From positions 1-64,000 of IMG/VR virus record IMGVR_UViG_3300045684_000013: a stretch of 64,000 bases of DNA; one strand, 5' to 3'. This stretch comes from a virus. Both the position numbers and the translations under genes were made by a program. The notes under the pieces were generated by a model. It saw only the letters and a program-made list of their open reading frames with translations, did no database searches and was not told where the DNA came from. Of this stretch, positions 7,269-63,928 are shown one piece after another; within the stretch, counting starts at the first letter, position 1, and each line of letters opens with the position of its first letter.

Positions 7269-7764
7269 GATTGGGATGCTTTGAAAATTTTGTATTCAAT
7301 GTTTGAAATCTGCCTGCTTATGCTGGCATGCATTGATACAGTGAAGCTGGTTTGAAGGCTTGTGTGGCACTGCCTTAGAAATCGAAGCGAAGATTTGAAG
7401 TGTTCTGAAGAAATGTTTGGGTCAAGCAGTATGGTCACGAAGAAGTCTTCTGAAAAATTAAAGCCTGAACGAATGGCAAATGATTTCAGCTTTTCCAAAA
7501 AACGCTGTCCATTCTTCCTTTTTGGAAGGTGGTGCAATGGGTACGGGCTTGTCGATATAAGGCACCAAAGGAAGAAGCCACACAAATGGCAGTGCCATCA
7601 GCTAGGCCAGCCACAAAATGTGTTTCTGGCAGCTGCCAGAAGGCCACACGAATGGCAGGCCAGTCAATGCCTCCAAAGAAGGTGGCCAGTTCAAAGCCTG
7701 AAGGCCTTGTGAAGCTTTCCATGGGCTGCTGTCTTTGAGCAAAAGAAAAGGTTGAAGCGGTCAT
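7265..7764 (-). pseudogene. Gene broken by two apparent homopolymer frameshifts
   Basis: The minus strand reads as three overlapping frame pieces that join into one coherent protein of about 165 aa if one base is removed from AAA at 7567-7569 and one from A6 at 7497-7502 (plus-strand coordinates). The start is ATG 7764, preceded by a typical TTCAACATCATCATC leader. The joined product runs from MTASTFSFAQ through VPYIDKPVPIAPPSKKEEW to the stop at 7265, which overlaps the next gene's ATG. Either the gene is decayed or the assembly has two homopolymer insertions. No family recognised. Confidence 0.55.
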
Positions 7765-7790
7765 GATGATGATGTTGAAGATGGAACGAA

Positions 7791-8114
7791 TTAACGGGAA
7801 AGGACACAATTGACAGTTCTGGCAGGGTGGTCATTGCCAAATGGCTTGTAGTCTTCAATGATTTCCATGGTGAAGCCCAATGCTGACACCTTGGCTGCAA
7901 ATGTTTTCCACAGTCTTTCACTGTTGTTAAAGCGGATATACACTACATCCTGTGCATTGATTGCAGCATACATTTCAGGTCTTGTCTTCAGCGTCTGTGG
8001 CATGAAGCCAGCCTGAAGAAGATCAGCAGCACGGTGAACGGAAACGGTTGTGCCAATTGCGTGTGCTTTTGCAAGTTGGGTGATGGTGGCTGATGTTCTT
8101 TCGGGTGAAGTCAT
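7791..8114 (-). CDS. Hypothetical protein behind repeat promoter
   Basis: 107 aa. The start ATG at 8114 follows the leader ACACAACAACATCAAA directly downstream of a minus-strand copy of the dispersed promoter repeat. Basic C-terminus, with an N-terminal Ser/Thr-rich helix and a segment AADLLQAGFMP that could be part of a helix-turn-helix, although this is weak. First gene of a three-gene unit running left to 6990. Confidence 0.6.
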   Translation of the reverse strand: MTSPERTSATITQLAKAHAIGTTVSVHRAADLLQAGFMPQTLKTRPEMYAAINAQDVVYIRFNNSERLWKTFAAKVSALGFTMEIIEDYKPFGNDHPARTVNCVLSR

Positions 8115-8127
8115 TTTGATGTTGTTG

Positions 8128-8210
8128 TGTCAAGCTTCATTGCCCAACACTTCAAAGATGCAAAAAGGTTTCAGACTTGCAAACATATTTGAAAATAGGT
8201 GCAAAAAAAA
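8128..8210 (-). promoter_or_regulatory. Dispersed promoter/5' UTR repeat, copy 1
   Basis: Minus-strand copy of the ~80-bp repeat. The -7-like box CATCTTTG is at 8153-8160 and is followed by the conserved UTR GTGTTGGGCAATGAAGCTTG. It drives the gene starting at 8114. Lies just downstream of the terminator at 8203-8234. Confidence 0.7.
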
Positions 8211-36550: not shown

Positions 36551-36633
36551 AGCAGACAAAAAAAAATAAACATTGATAATAGGCTGAAGGCCACCAAAGG
36601 TGGTTGGGTGTGATGGTTGATTTCAAAAGAATT

Positions 36634-37503
36634 ATGAGCAATAAAAAAATTCAAATATCAGTCAGCAAGTTGAATCAGTATCAGCAGTATTTATTGAAAA
36701 CTGAAATGCCTGCCAAGAATGAAGATGGCACCACATACCGTGACGAAAATGGCAAAGTGAAAATGACCGTGCTGTTTCCAGACCTTGAAACACTTTTCAG
36801 CAGCTGGCTGGAAAAATCACAGGCTTCACAGGCCATGGCTGTTGGCACAGCTGTTCACCTGTTTATTGAAACGGGTGGTGAATGCAATGTTGGCCAATAT
36901 GGTGCTTGGCATGGCTTTCAGGCACCACATGACCAAGGATTTGATATATTCATTCCAGACTATCAATTGACTGAAGTGAAGCAGTTTGTGGAGGCCACAA
37001 AGCATGCAAGGGAAGCTGAAGTGACGGTTGTGCCATGGGAATTTGAAATTGATGGTTTTCAGGTTGTCATCAGTGGCAAGATTGATGGCAAGCTGAATGG
37101 TGGCCAGCTGCTGGAAGATCACAAAGTATCAACATCAAAATGGAATCCAGCTAAAGATTGGGATGGCGGCAAGTCACCAAATGAAAAACTGTTTGCCAAA
37201 TTTGATGAAACCGTGCAGCATGATTTTTACATGTGCATGGCTGGTGCTGAAAAATTTGCTTACAATCAGTTTTGGTTCAGGCCTGCCAACCGTGGTGAAT
37301 TGTGGTCACCTACAACTGAAGGTTGTTTTATTTTGGCTGGTCAGGCCATGTTTGAAAGAAAACCTGCCTTGGTGCCAACCATGAAGGAATATTTTGAAGC
37401 AGTCATGCATGATTTGATTCAGACGGGATTTGCTGACAAGCTGGCTAAAAAGCAGGCATTCTGGATTGAAAAAAGATGGCCTGAAAAAACGTGGAAAGTA
37501 TGA
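36634..37503 (+). CDS. PD-(D/E)XK nuclease, Cas4/RecB-like
   Basis: 289 aa from ATG 36634 (an upstream ATG at 36613 is possible). VSKLNQYQQ at the N-terminus, AVGTAVHLFIE with H75, SGKIDGKL with D151, and LLEDHKVS with D162 and K164 are the RecB-family core. Family members act as 5'-3' exonucleases. Coupled with the Sak4-like gene upstream, it could form a phage recombination pair. Stop overlaps a small ORF by ATGA. Confidence 0.8.
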   Translation: MSNKKIQISVSKLNQYQQYLLKTEMPAKNEDGTTYRDENGKVKMTVLFPDLETLFSSWLEKSQASQAMAVGTAVHLFIETGGECNVGQYGAWHGFQAPHDQGFDIFIPDYQLTEVKQFVEATKHAREAEVTVVPWEFEIDGFQVVISGKIDGKLNGGQLLEDHKVSTSKWNPAKDWDGGKSPNEKLFAKFDETVQHDFYMCMAGAEKFAYNQFWFRPANRGELWSPTTEGCFILAGQAMFERKPALVPTMKEYFEAVMHDLIQTGFADKLAKKQAFWIEKRWPEKTWKV

Positions 37504-38333: not shown

Positions 38334-38762
38334 ATGAAGCCACAGAAGAAGCAGTCATTGGCAGACTGGAAAATCATTGGCAACCGTGCAAGAATTGCTG
38401 CCAGCGTATGTCAAAAGTATGGCATCAGTTTTCAGCAGCTGGACAATGCCAGCCCACACCCAATTGCACCACCATGCAGGATGGTCAATGCTGGCATGAC
38501 AGATGCCCAACAGGCACAATGGGACAGCGAAGGCGCAAACTTGTCAGCAGCCTTCAGTGAATATGTCCAGCGTTGCAAGGATGCGCACTACATAAGCAGC
38601 CACCAAGCCAAACCAAAGACTGAAAAAGCAATTGGGAAAACAGCTGTAAGGGATTGCACAACATGCAATTCATTCATTCATGGCCAGTGTGGCCACGGTG
38701 CCAACTTTGGTGCCAGATGCATTGCAGAAGAAAAATATAAATTTTGGAAAAAGCAGAAATAA
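38334..38762 (+). CDS. Zinc-binding protein, unknown
   Basis: 142 aa with leader CAACATCAATACAGGTCAAAT. The C-terminal 35 residues contain CTTC, CGHG and a further Cys, a probable zinc finger. Basic at both ends. Stop overlaps the next ATG (TAATG). Confidence 0.55.
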   Translation: MKPQKKQSLADWKIIGNRARIAASVCQKYGISFQQLDNASPHPIAPPCRMVNAGMTDAQQAQWDSEGANLSAAFSEYVQRCKDAHYISSHQAKPKTEKAIGKTAVRDCTTCNSFIHGQCGHGANFGARCIAEEKYKFWKKQK

Positions 38763-39199
38763 TGGAAGCAGTAAAAATTGAACATCAGCAATCAGAAGTG
38801 GGTGGCACTTATACTCCACATGAAGCCACGGTAAATGGCACCAACTACCCTGCACAACTGCCTGACAATGACAGGGCAGTGCTGGCCTTGGTTCGTGGTA
38901 AGTTTTATACATTGCCACTGGTTGTCAGGCACGCAGACCGTAGCTGGCAATTTCATAGTTATGGACGATGGAAGTGTATAGAAAATGGCACCAACTACCC
39001 TGCACAACTGCCCGACAATGACAGGGCAGTGCTGGCCTTGGTTCGTGGTAAGTTTTATACATTGCCACTGGTTGTCAGGCACGCAGACCGTAGCTGGCAA
39101 TTTCATAGTTATGGACGATGGAAGTGTATAGAAATTACAGAAAATGTGCTGTCATGGGCTGAATTGCCTAATGAATGGGCTGAAGAAATGAACATCTAA
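38762..39199 (+). CDS. DUF551-like protein with tandem-duplicated module
   Basis: 145 aa from ATG 38762. Two consecutive 50-residue copies of a module (NGTNYPAQLPDNDRAVLALV to SYGRWKCIE) are followed by a short SWAELPNEW tail. The module plus tail resembles the phage DUF551 family, which normally has one copy. The DNA repeats are nearly identical, so duplication is recent. The protein's role is unknown. Confidence 0.6.
   Translation: MEAVKIEHQQSEVGGTYTPHEATVNGTNYPAQLPDNDRAVLALVRGKFYTLPLVVRHADRSWQFHSYGRWKCIENGTNYPAQLPDNDRAVLALVRGKFYTLPLVVRHADRSWQFHSYGRWKCIEITENVLSWAELPNEWAEEMNI
38834..39133 (+). repeat. 150-bp near-identical tandem duplication
   Basis: Copies 38834-38983 and 38984-39133 differ at one visible position, CTGCCTGAC versus CTGCCCGAC, which is silent. 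In-frame duplication inside the DUF551-like gene. Confidence 0.9.
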
Positions 39200-51582: not shown

Positions 51583-52302
51583 ATGGCTAAGACGAAAGGC
51601 CAGCAGCCAAACCAGAAGCCCACTGGCCCAAAAAAAGTGAGGCTGAAAAGGAACAAAATGCAGATTGACCATGACAGGCTACTGATTTCCAGATACAGGC
51701 TGGAAGGCCTGCCAATGTATGAAATTGCCATCAGGCTGAATGCAAGGCCAGACGTGGAATATCAGTTGAATGTGGCAAATATTGAACGTGACATCAATGC
51801 TGTCAGGCAGGTGTGGAATAAAGAAGTGATGCCAAACATGGGTGCATTCCTGAATGAAAGGATTGCAGTGCAGCAGCATGCCAAATCAGAACTGTTTGCG
51901 ATGTACCACAGATCATTTCAGAAGGGCTTCACCATGACCACGCAACAGCGCGCCATTGTCAACATGGTTGAAGATGCTGACAAGCCGTCAATTGTGACTG
52001 CCAGTGGCATACAGCCAGCAATGAAGCAGGTGGCACAGCCGTATGAAGTAGTCACCAAGAATGACACTGAAGAATTCAGGCTGAAGGTACTGAATGCAAT
52101 TTCTGTTGTTGACATGCGAATCATGCAAATCATGGGCAAATCTGTTGATATGTACCATCAGCAAAGGCAACAGGAAGCAGAAATACAGGCACAGGCTGAA
52201 AAGGGTGGCAATCCATACACAGTGAATATTGTTGTGCAGGATTTTGATGCCAGCCAGCTGCAATCAACTGAAATGCAGTTCAGTGATATTGAAGAAGTCT
52301 GA
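51583..52302 (+). CDS. terS: Small terminase subunit
   Basis: 239 aa directly upstream of the large terminase with TGATG overlap. N-terminal basic region with a helix-turn-helix-like part (YRLEGLPMYEIAIRLNARPD), then helices for oligomerisation. The position is the strongest evidence. It should bind phage DNA and start packaging. Confidence 0.65.
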   Translation: MAKTKGQQPNQKPTGPKKVRLKRNKMQIDHDRLLISRYRLEGLPMYEIAIRLNARPDVEYQLNVANIERDINAVRQVWNKEVMPNMGAFLNERIAVQQHAKSELFAMYHRSFQKGFTMTTQQRAIVNMVEDADKPSIVTASGIQPAMKQVAQPYEVVTKNDTEEFRLKVLNAISVVDMRIMQIMGKSVDMYHQQRQQEAEIQAQAEKGGNPYTVNIVVQDFDASQLQSTEMQFSDIEEV

Positions 52303-53666
52303 TGCCTGACATCAACATTCTGCCAGCTTATGCAGAAATGCATACAACTGCAATGAAATATATCAGGTTGCAGGGCAGTGCTGGTTCTGGAAAGTCAGAA
52401 GCCTGCACCAGATTTGTGATTGCAGCGGCACTTCAGCATGAAAGAAGGAAGGTTCTGGTTATGCGTAAGGTGGCCAGAACATTACGAACATCAGTTTTTG
52501 CCACTTTTCTTGATGTGCTGGAAGAATTGGGCCTGTCAAGTCATTTTTATGTGACCACATCACCAATGGAAATGACAAACAAATTCAATGGCAGCAAAAT
52601 ATTATTCATGGGTGTTGATGACCCTGAAAAATTGAAGTCTATACGTGGTATCAGTCTTGTTTTTCTGGAAGAATTTACAGAATTCACAAAAAAGGATTTC
52701 AGGCAAATCAGGCTAAGACTAAGGACGCCAGACAATGCGCCGTTTCATGATCAGGTACTGATGGCCTACAATCCAATCAGCAAAAAAACTTTTGTCTATA
52801 AAGATATTCATGAAGGTGGCATGCTGGAAGGGCATGAATTATTCATCAAGACCACATATAAAGACAACCCATACCTTCCTGCCACATACAGGCAGGAATT
52901 GAATGAATTGGCTGAATCAAGTGACCCTGCATACGCCAAAATATATGCTGATGGTGAATTTGCTGACCTGATTGAAGGGCTGATATACAAGCAATACAAT
53001 GTGACACCTGATTTCAAGTTTTTCAGGGCACCAGTTTATGGCCTTGACTTTGGATTCAGCAGTGACCAGACAGCTTTGGTGAAGGTTGGTGAAGTGCCAC
53101 AGGCTGGCAGGAAGCCTGACAAGCTGTTTGCAGATGAAGTGTTTTATGAATTGAACCTGACAGCCAATGACATCACAGCCCTGATGCATGAATACAGGGT
53201 GCCCAAAAACGCAAAAATATATGCTGACCACAGGCCTGAAATCATTGAAGAAATTCAGCGTGCTGGCTGGTCAGGCTGCGTGAAGGCGGTAAAAGGTGCA
53301 GGCAGTATCAATTCAGGCATCATGTTGGTGCAGGGTTATGAATTGAACTTTACAGAAAACAGTGTGAACCTTCAGCGTGAAGCAGAATTATATAAATGGA
53401 AGGAAGACAGGGATGGCGAACCATTGCCAGAACCAATTGATAAATTCAATCATGGGCTTGATGCCATCAGAATGGCAGTGACATCAATGAAGGGAAAGAA
53501 GAACAGAAAGCCAGCGTCACAGCCAATTCCACAGGCAAGGGCTGGCCAGCCAGCCAGCAGCAGTGCAGCCAGCCAGCAGCAGGCCAGCAGGGCAGCAGGC
53601 AGGCAGCCTGATGTGTCAGGGATTGAAGCAGAAATTGAAGCACTGAAAAAGCGTTTATTGTCATGA
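52302..53666 (+). CDS. terL: Large terminase subunit
   Basis: 454 aa. Walker A GSAGSGKS at 25-32, Walker B around LVFLEEF near 116, and a nuclease domain with YGLDFGFSSD at about 245-254, YADHRPEI near 305 and FNHGLDAIRM near 382, the three acidic sites of terminase RNase-H nucleases. Drives ATP-dependent packaging and cuts DNA. An Ala/Gln/Ser-rich C-terminal tail is followed by a short helix. Confidence 0.92.
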   Translation: MPDINILPAYAEMHTTAMKYIRLQGSAGSGKSEACTRFVIAAALQHERRKVLVMRKVARTLRTSVFATFLDVLEELGLSSHFYVTTSPMEMTNKFNGSKILFMGVDDPEKLKSIRGISLVFLEEFTEFTKKDFRQIRLRLRTPDNAPFHDQVLMAYNPISKKTFVYKDIHEGGMLEGHELFIKTTYKDNPYLPATYRQELNELAESSDPAYAKIYADGEFADLIEGLIYKQYNVTPDFKFFRAPVYGLDFGFSSDQTALVKVGEVPQAGRKPDKLFADEVFYELNLTANDITALMHEYRVPKNAKIYADHRPEIIEEIQRAGWSGCVKAVKGAGSINSGIMLVQGYELNFTENSVNLQREAELYKWKEDRDGEPLPEPIDKFNHGLDAIRMAVTSMKGKKNRKPASQPIPQARAGQPASSSAASQQQASRAAGRQPDVSGIEAEIEALKKRLLS

Positions 53667-55429: not shown

Positions 55430-56161
55430 ATGGGAATTGATATAGTTATTCTTGCATTGTCCATGGTTGGCTTCACATTGCTTGTTTCTTTTTCGTTTGA
55501 AGATGGCAACATTTTCAGTTGGGCCATTTCGTCACTGAAGGAATGGCAAGGAAAAGCAGAAAGCAGGTTTGAGGCAATTCTGAAGGTGATCAGTAATGAA
55601 AGGAAGCAGGCTGAATGGCTTGAAGCTGCCATTGTTCCACCGCATCAGCCACCAATTGATGAACTGCAAAGGCTTGATTGGCATGTTGCATTTGCCGTGG
55701 CCACACATAGAGAACCAACTATGCAGGAAAGGGCAGAATATAAGACAGTCAATCACAGGAAAATGGCCAGTGACACACAAATTGTTCAATATCATCTTTT
55801 CCCATTTGAAATTGGTGAAGGGCTGGAAGAACTTCAGTCAAAGTTGAAAGACAATCAGCGGCTTCACTGCATCACAAATGATGTGGAGGCATGCAAGGCA
55901 AGGGCTGAAGCCATTAAAATAAACCACAAAATCAGGGCGGTCACTGATGAATTGAAAGCACAAAAAAAGGTTGACTTTATTGAATACATAATTAAGCCAA
56001 TTTATGGCTGTCCAATTTGCATGCTTTTTTGGTATGGTACAGCCTTTTTTGCTGCCATGTGGCTGACAGGTGTTGCAGGCTGGCTGTCATGGATGCCAGC
56101 AATGGCCTGTGCCTATGGCATTTTGCTGGCACCTGCTTTCATTAAGTCTTTTTCAGAATAA
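55430..56161 (+). CDS. Membrane protein with long helical middle
   Basis: 243 aa. An N-terminal hydrophobic helix (about 3-20), a long soluble charged part, and one or two C-terminal membrane segments (CMLFWYGTAFFAAMW, LSWMPAMACAYGILLAPAF). Unknown; membrane topology suggests a cell-envelope role. Confidence 0.55.
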   Translation: MGIDIVILALSMVGFTLLVSFSFEDGNIFSWAISSLKEWQGKAESRFEAILKVISNERKQAEWLEAAIVPPHQPPIDELQRLDWHVAFAVATHREPTMQERAEYKTVNHRKMASDTQIVQYHLFPFEIGEGLEELQSKLKDNQRLHCITNDVEACKARAEAIKINHKIRAVTDELKAQKKVDFIEYIIKPIYGCPICMLFWYGTAFFAAMWLTGVAGWLSWMPAMACAYGILLAPAFIKSFSE

Positions 56162-57389: not shown

Positions 57390-58232
57390 ATGTTTGATGC
57401 ACTTGCAATGATTGTTTCAAAAGTGCCTTTCAGGTCAAAGGAAAGAAAGGCACTTGATGAAGCACTAAAAGAATTTCCATACCATGTGGCATTCATGATT
57501 GGCAGACAAAAATGGTACTGTTATGATGAACTGTCGCACATGTCTGTTGGCAGGTCTGGCCAAGTCAATGCAATTGCAGCGCAGGCACAGTTGAATATCA
57601 CACCAGATGACCTGAAGTATCTTTCTGGCATCATTCGTGACATGCTGGATTTGCCACACACTGAAATGAAGTCAATGCAGGCAGAAGCTGGCAGAATACT
57701 TCAGGCAGGATTGCAGGCAACGCCACCAGACCAGCTGAAGACACTGTTGAAAAGGATGGCCACGGTTGACATGAAACCTGCAAGGGTGGCTGAAAGTCTG
57801 CTGACAGAACTTTCAAAAAGAATGGAACTGTTGGCACATGAAGAATTTTTGTACAGGCTGGCAGCTGTCATGTTTTGGTGTGACGGGGAAAATCCACGGC
57901 TGATGTTGGAGCCAGAACAGATCAACAAAAAAGTTGAATTTTTAAAAAAAAAGGGGGAAAATATACTCTTACGGCTGCTGATGACACCAGTGGCAAACAT
58001 ACTGTATCATCTCAATCAATCAGATCAAGATTCAGTCACATCATTGATGATGGCACTGACCATTCAGAAGCCCTTCCAAAAGTTTTCAGATATGATACTA
58101 ACACAGGAAAATCTGAAATCTTCAGTATCTGGCACCACACCCAAAGACACCTTGACAGAAGCAACATGGCCACATTCAGACAAGCAGGAAGAAGTCAGGC
58201 AGAATTTGAAAGGTGGAACATCAGACCTTTGA
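57390..58232 (+). CDS. Tail-assembly chaperone, zero-frame form (gpG-like)
   Basis: 280 aa upstream of the tape measure gene, the usual site of the tail-assembly chaperone. Helical protein with conserved-looking central part (CDGENPRLMLEPEQINKKV). It contains the slippery sequence A-AAA-AAG at 57947-57953 in the right phase for a -1 shift. Zero-frame translation continues to TGA 58232 (LKGGTSDL). Chaperones of this kind usually recruit the tape measure. Assignment is by position plus frameshift. Confidence 0.65.
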   Translation: MFDALAMIVSKVPFRSKERKALDEALKEFPYHVAFMIGRQKWYCYDELSHMSVGRSGQVNAIAAQAQLNITPDDLKYLSGIIRDMLDLPHTEMKSMQAEAGRILQAGLQATPPDQLKTLLKRMATVDMKPARVAESLLTELSKRMELLAHEEFLYRLAAVMFWCDGENPRLMLEPEQINKKVEFLKKKGENILLRLLMTPVANILYHLNQSDQDSVTSLMMALTIQKPFQKFSDMILTQENLKSSVSGTTPKDTLTEATWPHSDKQEEVRQNLKGGTSDL

Positions 58233-58342
58233 TTTCATTTTATGAATTCTTGGCCAAGCTGAAACAGCTGAATGACAATGACAGTGCCAGAAAGAAAATG
58301 GAAAGTGATTTGAAGCAGCAAAGGAAGCAGGCAAAAGGCTGA
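57390..58342 (+). CDS. Tail-assembly chaperone, -1 frameshift form (gpGT-like)
   Basis: Predicted 317-aa fusion: 188 codons in frame 0, then -1 at 57953, then 129 codons to TGA 58342. The -1 frame opens after a stop at 57935-57937, just before the slippery run of nine A, and stays open for 390 bases with a coherent protein sequence (GKYTLTAADD to QQRKQAKG). Alternatively the last 58 residues could be a separate gene starting at ATG 58166. Confidence 0.6.
57944..57957 (+). promoter_or_regulatory. Slippery site for programmed -1 frameshift
   Basis: Nine A followed by five G, read as AAA AAA AAG GGG in the zero frame, contains the classical A-AAA-AAG heptamer. A purine-rich downstream section follows; a stimulatory stem-loop was not verified. 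Confidence 0.6.
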
Positions 58343-58362
58343 CCAGCAATGGCCAGCTTTTT
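58338..58362 (+). terminator. Possible terminator
   Basis: GCTGACC and GGCCAGC can pair with one mismatch and are followed by five T. It ends the chaperone transcript before promoter copy 8. Confidence 0.5.
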
Positions 58363-58446
58363 CATTTATTTTCAACTTTTTTCAAATATGCTTGCAAGTC
58401 TGAAACCTTTTTTGCATCTTTGGAGTGTTGGGCAATGATGCCTGAC
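58359..58446 (+). promoter_or_regulatory. Dispersed promoter/5' UTR repeat, copy 8
   Basis: Carries a small internal insertion near its start and reads CATCTTTGGAGTG; UTR ends GATGCCTGAC, as in copy 6. Leads through CAACATCAACATCAA to ATG 58465. Confidence 0.7.
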
Positions 58447-58464
58447 AAACAACATCAACATCAA

Positions 58465-58995
58465 ATGAAGGCCATCAACAATTTTTCCAGCGATTTTCTG
58501 ACAAGCATGTTTGACAATGCGCGGCATGACATCAGCCTTGCCATTGAAAATGCACCATTCAATAATGGCATTGGCGGTGTGTTCGTCACTGACACAATTT
58601 TTGGACTGCTTGACATTGAATTCACTGAAGCAACTGGTGTGTTTGTCTTCAGAATCAACAATGATGGCAAGGATTTTTTTACCACTGGCAGCCATTATGC
58701 AGCAATTGTTTTCCTGATGGCTGCTTATGACTATACATCAGAAGGTGATTTGACAGAAGAAGAAAAGCAGGATGTGGCCTATTTGGCAGGCATGGCAGCG
58801 AATTACAAAGGGCAGAAGCTTGTGCCACACCACTGCAAGCAGTTTGGCATGTTGATTGATGGTCAGGTTGGCGGGAACACTGTGAAGCTTGCCACATCGT
58901 GGCACAATGGCTTTCACAGGGTGAACCATTTGGCAGGTGATGCACTGCTGCGAAAGTGGGCAGAAGAAGACAGCCAGCCACATCAGGCAGGCTGA
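58465..58995 (+). CDS. Hypothetical protein
   Basis: 176 aa, between the tail chaperone and tape measure but on its own promoter copy, so likely an inserted accessory gene rather than a tail gene. Alpha/beta, with acidic patches and His-rich middle. Followed by a terminator. Unknown. Confidence 0.6.
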   Translation: MKAINNFSSDFLTSMFDNARHDISLAIENAPFNNGIGGVFVTDTIFGLLDIEFTEATGVFVFRINNDGKDFFTTGSHYAAIVFLMAAYDYTSEGDLTEEEKQDVAYLAGMAANYKGQKLVPHHCKQFGMLIDGQVGGNTVKLATSWHNGFHRVNHLAGDALLRKWAEEDSQPHQAG

Positions 58996-59020: not shown

Positions 59021-59052
59021 AACAGCTGACATGATTTGTCAGCTGTTTTTTT
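59021..59052 (+). terminator. Rho-independent terminator
   Basis: AACAGCTGAC and GTCAGCTGTT form a perfect 10-bp stem with a 7-base loop and a T-run. The adjoining TATATATTG may be the promoter for the tape measure gene. Confidence 0.85.
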
Positions 59053-59134
59053 ATATATTGCAATTGGATGTGGTTGCCAGCACCTTCAAAAAAGCTGGAC
59101 TTTGGAAACAAGGGAACTTTTATTATTGATAAAT

Positions 59135-62100
59135 GTGGTTGATGATCAGCTGAAGGAAGCTGAAGCCACCATTGCAGGCCTTGGCAAAGGTGCTGGTGTT
59201 TCTGCTGACCAGCTGAAGAAGGTTGACAGTGCCCTGAAAAGTTCAGCAAAGTCATTCAGCACGCTTTCAACTGAAGCGCAGGCAGTACAGCAAAGAATCA
59301 CTGTACTTCAGAACAAAAGCCAAGGCCTTCAAAAGGCTTTGAAGGGTGCCACAAATCCAAATGACATCAAAGGCCTTTCAGCAGCATTAAAGCAGGTTGA
59401 AAAAGACCTTGAAGCTGCCATAAAGGATGCCATCAGGCTTGACAAGGCCACTGATGGTGTTGGAAGCACGGCAAAGAAAACTGGTGGCCTGTTTGGTGGC
59501 ATTGGCAAAGGGCTTGACTTGGGTGGCCTGTATTCAAAATTAGGTGGCCTGTCAGGTGGTCTGGCTAACTTGGGACTTGCCACAGGTGGTGCAACTGGTG
59601 GCCTGCTGTCCATGGCTGCCAGTGCAGGGCCAGTTGGCGCGGCAATTGCTGGCACATTGGGTGTTGTGCTGGCATTGGGCAAAGGGCTTTCAGCATCAGT
59701 TGACATTGCAAAGGAATATGAAAGCAGCCTTGCATCATTGTCAGCCATCACAGGGCTTTCAGGCAACAGCCTTGATGACCTTTCTGACAGGGCACAGAAT
59801 TTCACAATCAGGATCACAGATGCAGGTGGAGGCCTTCAGATGATCACGCTGAACGCTTCACAGGCTGCACAGGCCTTTGAAGTGGTTGGCTCAAAGGCGC
59901 CAGAATTGTTGAAGGTGCCGTCTGCATTGGATGCAGTAACAAAACAAGCATTGGTGCTGTCTGAAACGTCACGGTCACTTGGCTTTGATGAAGCTGTTGC
60001 AGGCCTGACCACATCAATCAACCAGTTCCTTCCTGTTGCTGATGAGCAGGCCACGGCACAGGAACGGGCAAACCAGATTGTGAAGCAAGGTGCTATCTTG
60101 ACAAATCAACTGGCAGCTGCACAGCAGCTTGGTGCAGTGCCTGTCACTGGCCTTGCACAGTCCCTTGAAAAATTTGGTGCAGTAGCAACAGCCAACAACA
60201 TCAGCAGTGCAGAATCAATTGCACTGGCTGAAACATTGGGCCAAAAATTTAGTGATCAGGCCACGGTTGGAACAAACCTAAGGAATATTATCAGCATTCT
60301 GGCAGCTGACACCACCAGCCTTGGTGTGTCATTCAAGGGTGCCGATGGTGAAGCACAGGGCATTCAGGGAAGCATTGAAGCCCTACGGGCAAAGCTGGAA
60401 GGCATCACCGACCCTGCTGAACGTGCAGCATTTTTGACAAAACAGTTTGGCCGGGAAAATGCAGCAGCTGCACAGATACTGGTGACCAATGTGGAACAAA
60501 CAGCCAAGCTGACAGCAGAACTGGAAAAACAGGCTGAAAGAACCCTTGCCAATGGTGCTGCTGCACAGCAGGCTGCCATCAATGCTGACACATACGAAAA
60601 ATCACAGGAAAGACTAAGAAACACACTGACACAGGTTGGCAATAAAATTGGTCAATCGCTGCTGCCAATTTTGAAAAGCCTGACAGACTTCATAAACGAT
60701 GTCATCAGAAGGGCTGATGAATTGGGTGAAGGGCTGAAGCCACTGAAAGATGCATTTGGCGTGCTGATTGATACCATCAGCAGCCTGATTGGTGAATTGG
60801 GGCTTGCTGGTGGTGAAACTGATTTTTTAGGTATTGCTTTTGCCATATTGCGCGAAGTGCTGGAAGCTGTAACAGCTGGCATGACCATTGCCGTAAAGGC
60901 TGTGACGGGTTTGGTGAATTGGTACAGGATTTTGGCAACAGTGGTCAGGGCTGGCATTGCTGTCATTGGTGAATTTTCAGATACAGTCAAACGTGCATTT
61001 GATGGTGATTTCACTGCATTTGTTGGCCTTGGTGACAGGTTAAAAGGTGCATTCCTGAAAGAAATGGAAGATGTTGATAAAATATTAGCACCAACTGTGA
61101 ATGAAGTCACAAACAAGCTAGAAAACATTATTACAGACAAATTCAACAGCATTCAATTTGGTGGTGATGCCACTGGCCTTGCCAGTCAGATTGAAGGGAC
61201 AATAAAAGCTGCCATTGATGGTGTTGACCCTGAAAAAGCAGCTGAAGCAATGGCCAGATTAGGGCCAACAATCCGTGCAAAAATTGATGATGCACTTGAC
61301 AGGAAAAACATCAACCTTGAACAGGCTGCACAGTTGCAGGCAGAATTGGAAAAAGTCATTGGTGGCCTTGTTCCTGATGCAGTTGACCCAAACAACACAC
61401 CTGAAAAAAGGGCAGCAGCTGAAGCAGAAGCAGCAAAGGCAGCAGCAGAAGCAGCAAGGGCAGCAGCTGATGCCAAGTCAAAAGCAGACAGGGCAGCAGC
61501 TGAAACATTGAATGGCTTGCAACAGCAGCTGATTGAATTGAAAAAAGAAAGGCTTGAATTGCCAATTGGTACAGCTGCATTCAACAAAGTTAATGCAGAA
61601 ATTCAGGCCATTGAAACAAAGGTGAAAACCCTGAAGGGTGAAGTGAAGGTGCAGTTGACACCAGATGAAAAGAAGCTGAATGAATTATTGGAACAGATTC
61701 AAAGCACTGAAGCACAGGTGAAGGTGGCTGTTGCTGAAGGTGATGATAAAAAGGTGTCAAAGCTTCAGAGTGACTTGAAGATACTTTCTTCACTGGAAGC
61801 TGAAGCAAGGGTGAAGATTCAGTCAGGGCCATTCACTGATGAGTTGAAGAAGATCACTGATGAATTGAATGACTTCAAGGCACAGGCAGAAGCAAAAATA
61901 TTGCAGGTCAGCTTGGGTGTGGCCATTGATGCAGGTGATTCAGCCACAGCCATCAGGATTCAGACGCAATTGATTGAGGCAGAAGCACAGAAGGAAATTG
62001 ACCAGATTTCAGAAAACACCACACTGAAACGGCTGGCCATTGTTGATCCTGGAGCAGCAGCAGACCTTGAAAAACAGTTGCTTAATGCAATAGAGAAGAC

Positions 62101-63928
62101 AAAAACAGACAGGATTGATGAAGCCACAAAGAAAATTGGCCAGCAGGTGTCATCTGACTTTGTTGAAAACATTCTGACAGCTTATTCAGAAAAGATTGCA
62201 GGCAGTTCAAGTGAATTTCAGGCCTTGGCTGATTCATTGCGTGGCCAGATTGTGGCATTAGGTCAGTCACTTGATGTGGTACAATCCACACAAGACGTGG
62301 CAGAAGCCAGAAGCATTCTGGCAGCATTGGGCCTTGATGCCTCCACCATTCCAGCAGATGTTGCAACCGTGGAGGCTGCCACAGAAGCCATACAAAGCCA
62401 AATCAAAGCCATACAAGGCCAACTGCTGTCAGAAAATCAGACCTTTGCCAGCAGCTTTATTGGCCAAACACAGGCCACCATTGCTGAAATTGGGCAAGAA
62501 ATTGCAAAGCTGGAAGCCTTGCAGGCAGATGGCAGCTTGTCAGATGAAGATGCACAAAAGCTGGAAGGGCTGAGAACGCTATACCAAAGGCTTTCAGCAG
62601 ACGTTGGCAGCGCACGTGAAGAAGTTGTGCAGCTGGCTGAAGAAGTCAACAGCCTGAATTTGTCTGCCTTTGAAGAAGCTTTCAAGGGTGCTTCAAGTGA
62701 AGTCAAAAATTTGGGTGAAGAAATCATTGCAGCTGGTGCAGCACTTGGCAAAGAAATTGATCCTGAACTGGCAAGAAAGTTGGGTCAGGGCTTTTTGAAT
62801 ACAGCAAAAATCATCAATGGCGTTCAGGAAACATCAGCTGCATTTTTTGAATTCAGGCTGCAAAAGGCAGAGCAAACCAATGCTGAAGAATTGAAAGGCA
62901 TTGATGAACAGATTGCAGAAGCAGAAACAAGGCAAAGGAAGGGTGCAGCTGGTCAGGAAAAAATATTAGAAAGCCTGAAAAACAAAAGGATTGAACTTGA
63001 AGAAGAGCAGGAACGGGAAATAAGAAAGGTGAAAGAAAAACAGTTCAAGGTTGACAAGGCATTCAATTTGGTCACTGCTGTCATGAATGGTGCATTGGCC
63101 TTCACAAAAGCCCTGTCATCCGCTGCACCACCAGTCAACTTCATTCTTGCTGGCCTGTCAGCAGCCGCAACAGCAGCCCAAATTGCAACAATTGTCAGTG
63201 CAAAGCCTTCATTTTTTGAAGGAACACCATTTGTGTCAGCTGCTGTTGGCAAGGGCGGAAAAGATTCAGTTGATGCACGGCTGCATCATGGTGAACGGGT
63301 GGTCACTGCCAGCCAAAACAAAAAGCACTTCAATGACTTCACGGCAATTGATGGTGGTGGACTGGTGCCAGATGCAGCAGCTGCCTTGGCCAACATGCCA
63401 GCAAAGGTGCAAAGGATGCTGATGAAGCAGCCAGATGCATTCATCAGGCTGGCCATGGGTGGTGATGATCAATTTACGCAGGTTTCATCTGGCAATGTGG
63501 CAAAGGCTGGCATCAGAAAGCAACTGATTCAGGCCATTACCAGCCATACAGAATTGACAACCAGATTGAATGTGGAGGCTGAACGGCTACTGACAGGCCA
63601 CAGGGTGCCACGTGCTGAAATAAAAGGCAGGCTGAAGGGTATTGGCATCAATGACACACAAAGCCCTGTGGTGCCACGTTTACGGCTGACGCAGCAGGCT
63701 GAAGATGCAATCAGAAGTCAGCACATGGACATGGCAGGCATGTCATCAATAAATTATGGGAAATTGGCAGGCATGGTGGCAGAAAAGATTTCAGAACGGC
63801 TGCCAGATGCAATGTATAAAATGCAGCATCGTGACAGTAGTGTTGATAAATACCAGCTTGATACATTGCGTCACGGGCTGTCAGTCATTGCAGAAAAGCT
63901 GGAAGACCTAAACAAAAAACAGAAATGA
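59135..63928 (+). CDS. Tail tape measure protein
   Basis: About 1,597 aa if started at GTG 59135. The frame upstream to 59036 is open but crosses the terminator. Long helical and Ala/Gln-rich coiled-coil body, a hydrophobic patch (about residues 160-195 of the frame: GAAIAGTLGVVLALG), and a C-terminal part with LHHGERVVTA, as in many tape measures. It sets tail length; by the usual 0.15 nm per residue rule the tail would be about 240 nm. The real start may be ATG 59068 in another frame (see findings). Confidence 0.88.
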   Translation: MVDDQLKEAEATIAGLGKGAGVSADQLKKVDSALKSSAKSFSTLSTEAQAVQQRITVLQNKSQGLQKALKGATNPNDIKGLSAALKQVEKDLEAAIKDAIRLDKATDGVGSTAKKTGGLFGGIGKGLDLGGLYSKLGGLSGGLANLGLATGGATGGLLSMAASAGPVGAAIAGTLGVVLALGKGLSASVDIAKEYESSLASLSAITGLSGNSLDDLSDRAQNFTIRITDAGGGLQMITLNASQAAQAFEVVGSKAPELLKVPSALDAVTKQALVLSETSRSLGFDEAVAGLTTSINQFLPVADEQATAQERANQIVKQGAILTNQLAAAQQLGAVPVTGLAQSLEKFGAVATANNISSAESIALAETLGQKFSDQATVGTNLRNIISILAADTTSLGVSFKGADGEAQGIQGSIEALRAKLEGITDPAERAAFLTKQFGRENAAAAQILVTNVEQTAKLTAELEKQAERTLANGAAAQQAAINADTYEKSQERLRNTLTQVGNKIGQSLLPILKSLTDFINDVIRRADELGEGLKPLKDAFGVLIDTISSLIGELGLAGGETDFLGIAFAILREVLEAVTAGMTIAVKAVTGLVNWYRILATVVRAGIAVIGEFSDTVKRAFDGDFTAFVGLGDRLKGAFLKEMEDVDKILAPTVNEVTNKLENIITDKFNSIQFGGDATGLASQIEGTIKAAIDGVDPEKAAEAMARLGPTIRAKIDDALDRKNINLEQAAQLQAELEKVIGGLVPDAVDPNNTPEKRAAAEAEAAKAAAEAARAAADAKSKADRAAAETLNGLQQQLIELKKERLELPIGTAAFNKVNAEIQAIETKVKTLKGEVKVQLTPDEKKLNELLEQIQSTEAQVKVAVAEGDDKKVSKLQSDLKILSSLEAEARVKIQSGPFTDELKKITDELNDFKAQAEAKILQVSLGVAIDAGDSATAIRIQTQLIEAEAQKEIDQISENTTLKRLAIVDPGAAADLEKQLLNAIEKTKTDRIDEATKKIGQQVSSDFVENILTAYSEKIAGSSSEFQALADSLRGQIVALGQSLDVVQSTQDVAEARSILAALGLDASTIPADVATVEAATEAIQSQIKAIQGQLLSENQTFASSFIGQTQATIAEIGQEIAKLEALQADGSLSDEDAQKLEGLRTLYQRLSADVGSAREEVVQLAEEVNSLNLSAFEEAFKGASSEVKNLGEEIIAAGAALGKEIDPELARKLGQGFLNTAKIINGVQETSAAFFEFRLQKAEQTNAEELKGIDEQIAEAETRQRKGAAGQEKILESLKNKRIELEEEQEREIRKVKEKQFKVDKAFNLVTAVMNGALAFTKALSSAAPPVNFILAGLSAAATAAQIATIVSAKPSFFEGTPFVSAAVGKGGKDSVDARLHHGERVVTASQNKKHFNDFTAIDGGGLVPDAAAALANMPAKVQRMLMKQPDAFIRLAMGGDDQFTQVSSGNVAKAGIRKQLIQAITSHTELTTRLNVEAERLLTGHRVPRAEIKGRLKGIGINDTQSPVVPRLRLTQQAEDAIRSQHMDMAGMSSINYGKLAGMVAEKISERLPDAMYKMQHRDSSVDKYQLDTLRHGLSVIAEKLEDLNKKQK

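Follow-up and report, generated by a model that had tools for sequence, protein, structure and literature searches.

Does a phage gene that runs into nine consecutive adenines, with an open -1 frame behind them, yield one protein or two, and if two, what moves the frame? We interrogated such a locus in the window, by which we mean the whole stretch of 64,000 bases analysed here out of a 66,406-base virus record. The preliminary description had proposed at this place a probable programmed -1 frameshift in a tail assembly chaperone gene. Frameshifting in chaperone genes is common in long-tailed phages and is described as ribosomal. The features of the site are:

57390..58232, + strand: zero-frame open reading frame (ORF) of 280 aa, predicted short (G-like) product; from the ORF and the profile of homologous zero-frame ORFs
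57935..57937, + strand: TGA closing the -1 frame 6 nt upstream of the run; from the sequence
57944..57952, + strand: run of nine As, candidate slip site, with G5 directly after it; from the sequence
57953..58342, + strand: predicted -1 frame extension (T-like domain), 129 codons and a stop; from the homologous -1 profile
57954..58232, + strand: both frames open and both scoring as coding (dual coding); from codon and Markov scores

The heptamer A AAA AAG at 57947-57953 lies, as originally noted, in phase with ORF 57390-58232 and within the A9 run, which also holds the registers A AAA AAA and A AAG GGG. Since the -1 frame is closed by the TGA at 57935-57937, which the preliminary description had placed correctly, a switch must fall at or after the run. 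From 57938 the -1 frame is open to the TGA at 58340-58342, and the 390-base open stretch reported earlier is recovered exactly as 57953-58342, including the stop. Zero-frame residues 1-188 stop at the slip site and 92 further codons follow the run, a length that is unusual for lambda G/GT and on which the earlier account was silent. The locus consists of two overlapping ORFs, the second in the -1 frame and without a start of its own near the overlap; its first ATG, GTG or TTG is the ATG at 58166, 214 nt beyond the run. The count of nine As is that given by the assembly. It had been claimed that a corrected run of either eight or ten As would put the two frames together. A10 does join them (as would the loss of two bases), whereas with A8 reading would pass to the +1 frame, and this is closed after eight codons.

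We consider it very probable, from the sequences compared below, that a frame switch at the nine-base run is real. Normal reading would give the 280 aa G-like protein. In a minority of cases the frame would move back by one at the A9 run, giving a fused GT-like product of about 317 aa whose C-terminal part differs; this longer protein would connect the tape measure with tail tube subunits. The slippage would be due either to the ribosome, at A AAA AAG, or to RNA polymerase, through insertion of an extra A in the mRNA. We infer the two products, their ratio, the agent and the chaperone role from a site, open frames, a gene family and a neighbourhood that were computed.

Relatives of the gene proved difficult to find by direct comparison. 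Peptide-pattern searches of viral contigs with the N part, the C part, capsid, portal, tape measure and gene 36604-37503 gave no match, nor did a search of genome contigs with the N part, and tblastn against phage records returned nothing relevant, either with parts of the gene or with two homologues. The gene matches no chaperone family in PHROG or Pfam. Tail chaperone genes diverge strongly and a match to a named family is not a defining feature of them, so we did not take this absence as an exclusion. The way in was one weak match (E=8e-4) in a Candidatus Azobacteroides genome, among six genomes reached via the terminase, at a locus that sits between a terminase fragment and a tape-measure-like ORF. 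Using a 62%-identical copy in another genome, we built a profile that led to seven more loci in genomes of the class Bacteroidia. The resulting nine homologues, all from Bacteroidia genomes, have pairwise identities of 14-60%, and a profile of their zero-frame ORFs places the window ORF at rank 1 of 531 window ORFs (E=1.2e-12). The result also explains the failure of the direct searches. Two leads were discarded: a helicase-like ORF was a false match (L067), and PHROG 17272, weakly matched by one homologue, led to nothing in 395 genomes.

In all nine homologues a -1 ORF overlaps and outlasts the zero-frame ORF, and eight of the nine carry, at a single aligned site, an in-phase run of exactly nine Ts. 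Seven of them read T TTT TTT TTG after differing codons (GAT, GCT, AGT, GGT), and the codon phase of the run is the same in the window and these seven; one other (L066/L076) has its nine Ts as TTT TTT TTT, in another phase. The ninth homologue (L063/L071) has T TTT TTC and no nine-run. In the alignment the A9 run of the window precedes the T9 position by about seven codons. Within every run, in the window and in the homologues, an in-phase X XXY YYZ slippery heptamer falls in the overlap. After the run the homologues continue for 17-70 codons in the zero frame and 61-102 in the -1 frame, compared with 92 and 129 in the window, which on this comparison is the long extreme of the same two-frame design. 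Two homologues (L071, L072) have no start codon of the -1 frame near the run. In L075, a relative whose GC content is 65% and in which TTT makes up 6% of the Phe codons, 9 kb of sequence contain no A/T run of at least eight bases other than the T9. With proteins fixed and the codon usage of each locus applied, the joint chance of a run of at least nine anywhere in each gene is about 10^-10.6 for the eight homologues and the window, a value that treats the sequences as independent and is overstated for the close pair. The nine-base run looks selected rather than like a sequencing slip.

Conservation across the family is strong for the N part (the E=1.2e-12 given above) and marginal for the -1 part of the window alone. 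In leave-one-out tests, profiles of the -1 extensions rank seven of the nine members first among 532, and tails beyond the zero-frame stop alone rank four of the nine first; the overlap with the zero frame may supply part of the signal of the extension profiles. Against the full extension profile the window -1 ORF takes rank 1 of 531 with E=0.38, so its homology rests on rank and place rather than on score alone. The extensions have a short motif in common, FYEFL in the window and IYEFF, WYDFL or WYDYL in relatives. Past the A9 run the zero-frame homology of the window is weak (42.9 versus 40.9 bits, with 35 of 300 shuffled tails scoring as high), and its zero-frame tail therefore rests on coding statistics and family layout. 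Selection in the overlap, examined in two close pairs, received weak support from third-position identity (60% versus 49%, one-sided p=0.04), and codon identity at conserved residues gave no significant result in these pairs (p=0.34). No conserved RNA structure was found downstream of the run among the homologues. An absence of the extension from homologues had been named as evidence against the frameshift; all nine carry an aligned -1 extension with a slippery run.

We next consider the surroundings of the gene, which bear on its role. The features concerned are:

52302-53666: terminase large subunit, assigned within the window
58338..58361, + strand: probable intrinsic terminator (GCTGACCAGCAATGGCCAGC and a T run); from the sequence
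58350..58460, + strand: repeat copy, promoter-like TTTG-N20-CATCTTTG and leader; from eight intergenic copies
58465..58995, + strand: gene of unknown function, 176 aa, between the putative chaperone gene and the tape measure
59036-63928, + strand: tail length tape measure protein; from PHROG tape measure families (best E=1.8e-25) and Pfam PF10145
8137 and 11241, - strand: copies of TTTGCATCTTTGAAGTGTTGGGCAATGA
27329, 47322, 49195, 50558, 54601 and 58411, + strand: copies of TTTGCATCTTTGAAGTGTTGGGCAATGA

A tape-measure-like ORF adjoins the pair of frames or is one gene away in eight of the nine homologues, and several of these ORFs match PHROG tape-measure families with E below 1e-4. This makes it likely that the gene is a tail assembly chaperone, a role assigned from position. 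The proposal of a -1 frameshift in such a gene gains support from the homologues. The gene had also been described as lying upstream of the tape measure exactly where lambda G/GT-type frameshifts occur. It does lie upstream, although not directly, since the gene at 58465-58995 and a terminator/promoter module intervene; two homologous loci likewise have one extra gene before the tape measure. The stop of the -1 frame, at the end of its ORF, falls in the stem of the probable terminator. TTTGCATCTTTGAAGTGTTGGGCAATGA occurs in eight near-perfect copies in the window, inside an intergenic repeat of about 110 nt whose leader ends at the next start codon and which in some copies is preceded by a terminator. 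The repeat looks like a modular terminator-promoter set of this phage, and a search for it in viral contigs gave chance matches only.

The closest relatives of the terminase among genome contigs are from Bacteroidota, and the intergenic repeat resembles the promoter consensus of that phylum. Together these point to a host that is probably a member of Bacteroidota. Terminase relatives in viral contigs have the terminase alone in common with the window, bar one ParB-like match, and in the two that we inspected (L003, L024) an unrelated chaperone-like pair of their own precedes the tape measure.

Some observations lie to the side of the frame question. Small membrane proteins with a C-x-x-C-M motif, seen by eye, are encoded at 55430-56161 between terminase and chaperone gene, and two prophages (L049, L052) also have such genes, again by eye, upstream of the chaperone. 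The ORF at 38744-39199 contains an internal duplication of about 50 residues, with NGTNYPAQLPDNDRAVLALVRGKFYTLPLVVRHADRSWQFHSYGRWKCIE present twice, which would be either a true tandem duplication or an assembly fault. At one homologous locus (L073) an ORF at 7580-8176, between chaperone and tape measure, resembles the N part of the chaperone (VRKAFSFDGVDYYVPVNLFDLPTGR) and is perhaps a duplicate of it. Another of the homologues (L070 7735-8463, G1013:C17) has T9 and a -1 extension beside an opposite-strand gyrB-like gene with no tape measure nearby, and would be either a remnant or a mixed contig. In Flavobacterium phage FCV-1 the gap that precedes the tape measure is taken up by an unannotated -1 frame ORF (L047 5578-6240), which overlaps gp29; the record of this phage probably lacks annotation of a chaperone frameshift.

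If the frame is switched, which agent switches it? Classical programmed -1 ribosomal frameshifting alone, similar to lambda G/GT and with the length of nine incidental, is a serious contender to which we give somewhat less than an even chance; as regards the products it is a sub-case of the frame switch proposed here. Ribosomes slip at A AAA AAG and at T TTT TTT, and the known phage precedent is ribosomal (PMC5009743). The in-phase heptamer in every run agrees with this, and the homologue with T TTT TTC and no nine-run favours the ribosome. However, seven bases suffice for the ribosome, yet the run is exactly nine bases long in eight of the nine homologues, and the Leu codon that completes T9 is always TTG, though TTG makes up only 14-72% of the Leu codons at those loci. 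Nine As or Ts is the length at which selection against slippage of bacterial RNA polymerase becomes evident in many genomes (Baranov 2005, PMC1088944), and some bacterial genes exploit RNA polymerase slippage at such runs (PMC1088944; Atkins 2016, PMC5009743). A length held at nine while the base changes, with TTG always completing the run, favours a contribution of the polymerase. The lack of a stimulatory structure also speaks against the ribosome acting alone, though the lambda frameshift is not known to need such a structure, so the missing conserved structure does not discriminate. On balance the chance that RNA polymerase contributes materially to the switch seems to us about even. We found no description of transcriptional slippage in a phage tail chaperone in the open-access literature searched, which is no proof of novelty.

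The remaining alternatives dispense with a frame switch, and coding statistics bear on both. The open -1 frame exceeds what chance would give. When the codons of the zero-frame protein are replaced by synonyms, 0.25% of draws leave all 92 codons past the run without a stop in the -1 frame. The converse redrawing, which preserves the -1 protein, leaves the zero frame open across 71 codons in about 12%. Among 1056 -1 shadow runs from 32 other genes of the window, all confident genes of this phage, the longest from stop to stop is 83 codons, versus 134 here. After the run the zero and -1 frames score within 10 bits of each other over 213 nt in all four models (codon and 3-periodic Markov), and the third frame falls more than 75 bits short. 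In 161 segments of real genes the smallest margin of the true frame under the order-2 model is 22.6 bits over the -1 frame and 9.8 bits over the +1 frame. Given openness, the scores are compatible with the zero frame after the run being real, and codon and Markov scores clearly mark the -1 frame as coding beyond the stop of the zero frame. These results suggest that both frames after the run are in use. Structures predicted with AlphaFold without an alignment had mean pLDDT of 37 and 50 and were not used.

The 280-aa gene could be complete without any frameshift, followed by a separate small overlapping gene that starts at ATG 58166 (58 aa) or at TTG 58229 (37 aa), which overlaps the stop of the zero frame. 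Such a gene fits the codon scores, which put the best single switch point at 58196-58229, and the observation that the -1 frame is clearly coding by score only from about 58170. We regard it as very unlikely, because 76-98 codons upstream of these starts would be open by chance, beyond nearly all or all of the 1056 shadow runs, and an in-phase slippery nine-run at the beginning of the open stretch would be a coincidence. The homologues, moreover, share the layout, including the two without a start codon near the run.

About as remote is the possibility that A9 is a sequencing or assembly error for a true A10, or a fresh mutation, and that the locus is a single ordinary ORF, about 318 codons long. 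Errors are frequent in homopolymers, a single base would unite the frames, and the count of nine rests on the assembly. However, nine homologous loci also split into two frames at a slippery run, and both frames are open past the run in every homologue, which makes a miscounted A run unlikely. We reject the -1 frame as the sole coding frame after A9 on family layout and coding statistics, since the zero frame past the run looks coding and the log-odds for the -1 frame alone would be below those of all 68 comparable open +1 shadow runs in this phage.

The frame switch at the nine-base run can be set beside known systems. The marks of lambda G/GT-type chaperones are binding to the tape measure, a long product made at a few percent and absence from the virion, and in lambda the zero frame ends near the slip site. 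Similar to lambda, the locus is predicted to give two products with a common N-terminal part, the -1 extension has no start of its own, the slippery heptamer is in phase, and the site in relatives lies just upstream of the tape measure. In contrast to lambda, the zero frame runs on for 17-92 codons beyond the slip site, slippage would occur on a homopolymer of nine bases, the tape measure of the window is set apart by a gene and a terminator/promoter module, and no similarity to PHROG or Pfam chaperone families was found. In lambda, the chaperone bound to the tape measure is connected with tail tube subunits through the -1 T part (PMC5009743). Genes with transcriptional slippage at A9 or T9 (Thermus thermophilus dnaX, IS element transposases, Shigella mxiE) likewise have a conserved coding nine-run and use it to reach another frame, whereas slippage at the mRNA level is a prediction here and one relative has no nine-run. 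In dnaX the ribosome in E. coli and RNA polymerase in Thermus reach the same outcome (PMC5009743). This pairing of A AAA AAG with A9, and of two agents in homologues, is a precedent for a mixed family, although the second product of dnaX is shorter and here it would be a fusion with a new domain.

The nine-base run is kept among relatives at as little as 14-35% protein identity, with A replacing T in the window phage, and this makes transcriptional setting of the chaperone ratio in phage tails a directly askable question. Tentatively, and somewhat against our expectation, a family of tail chaperones of Bacteroidota phages and prophages may reach the -1 extension mainly by RNA-polymerase slippage at the kept nine-run, with a long dual-translated stretch. 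If that reading were true, the chaperone ratio would be set at the mRNA level and not by the ribosome. The design can also serve as a pattern in searches of Bacteroidota prophages for unannotated chaperones, which PHROGs do not recognise.
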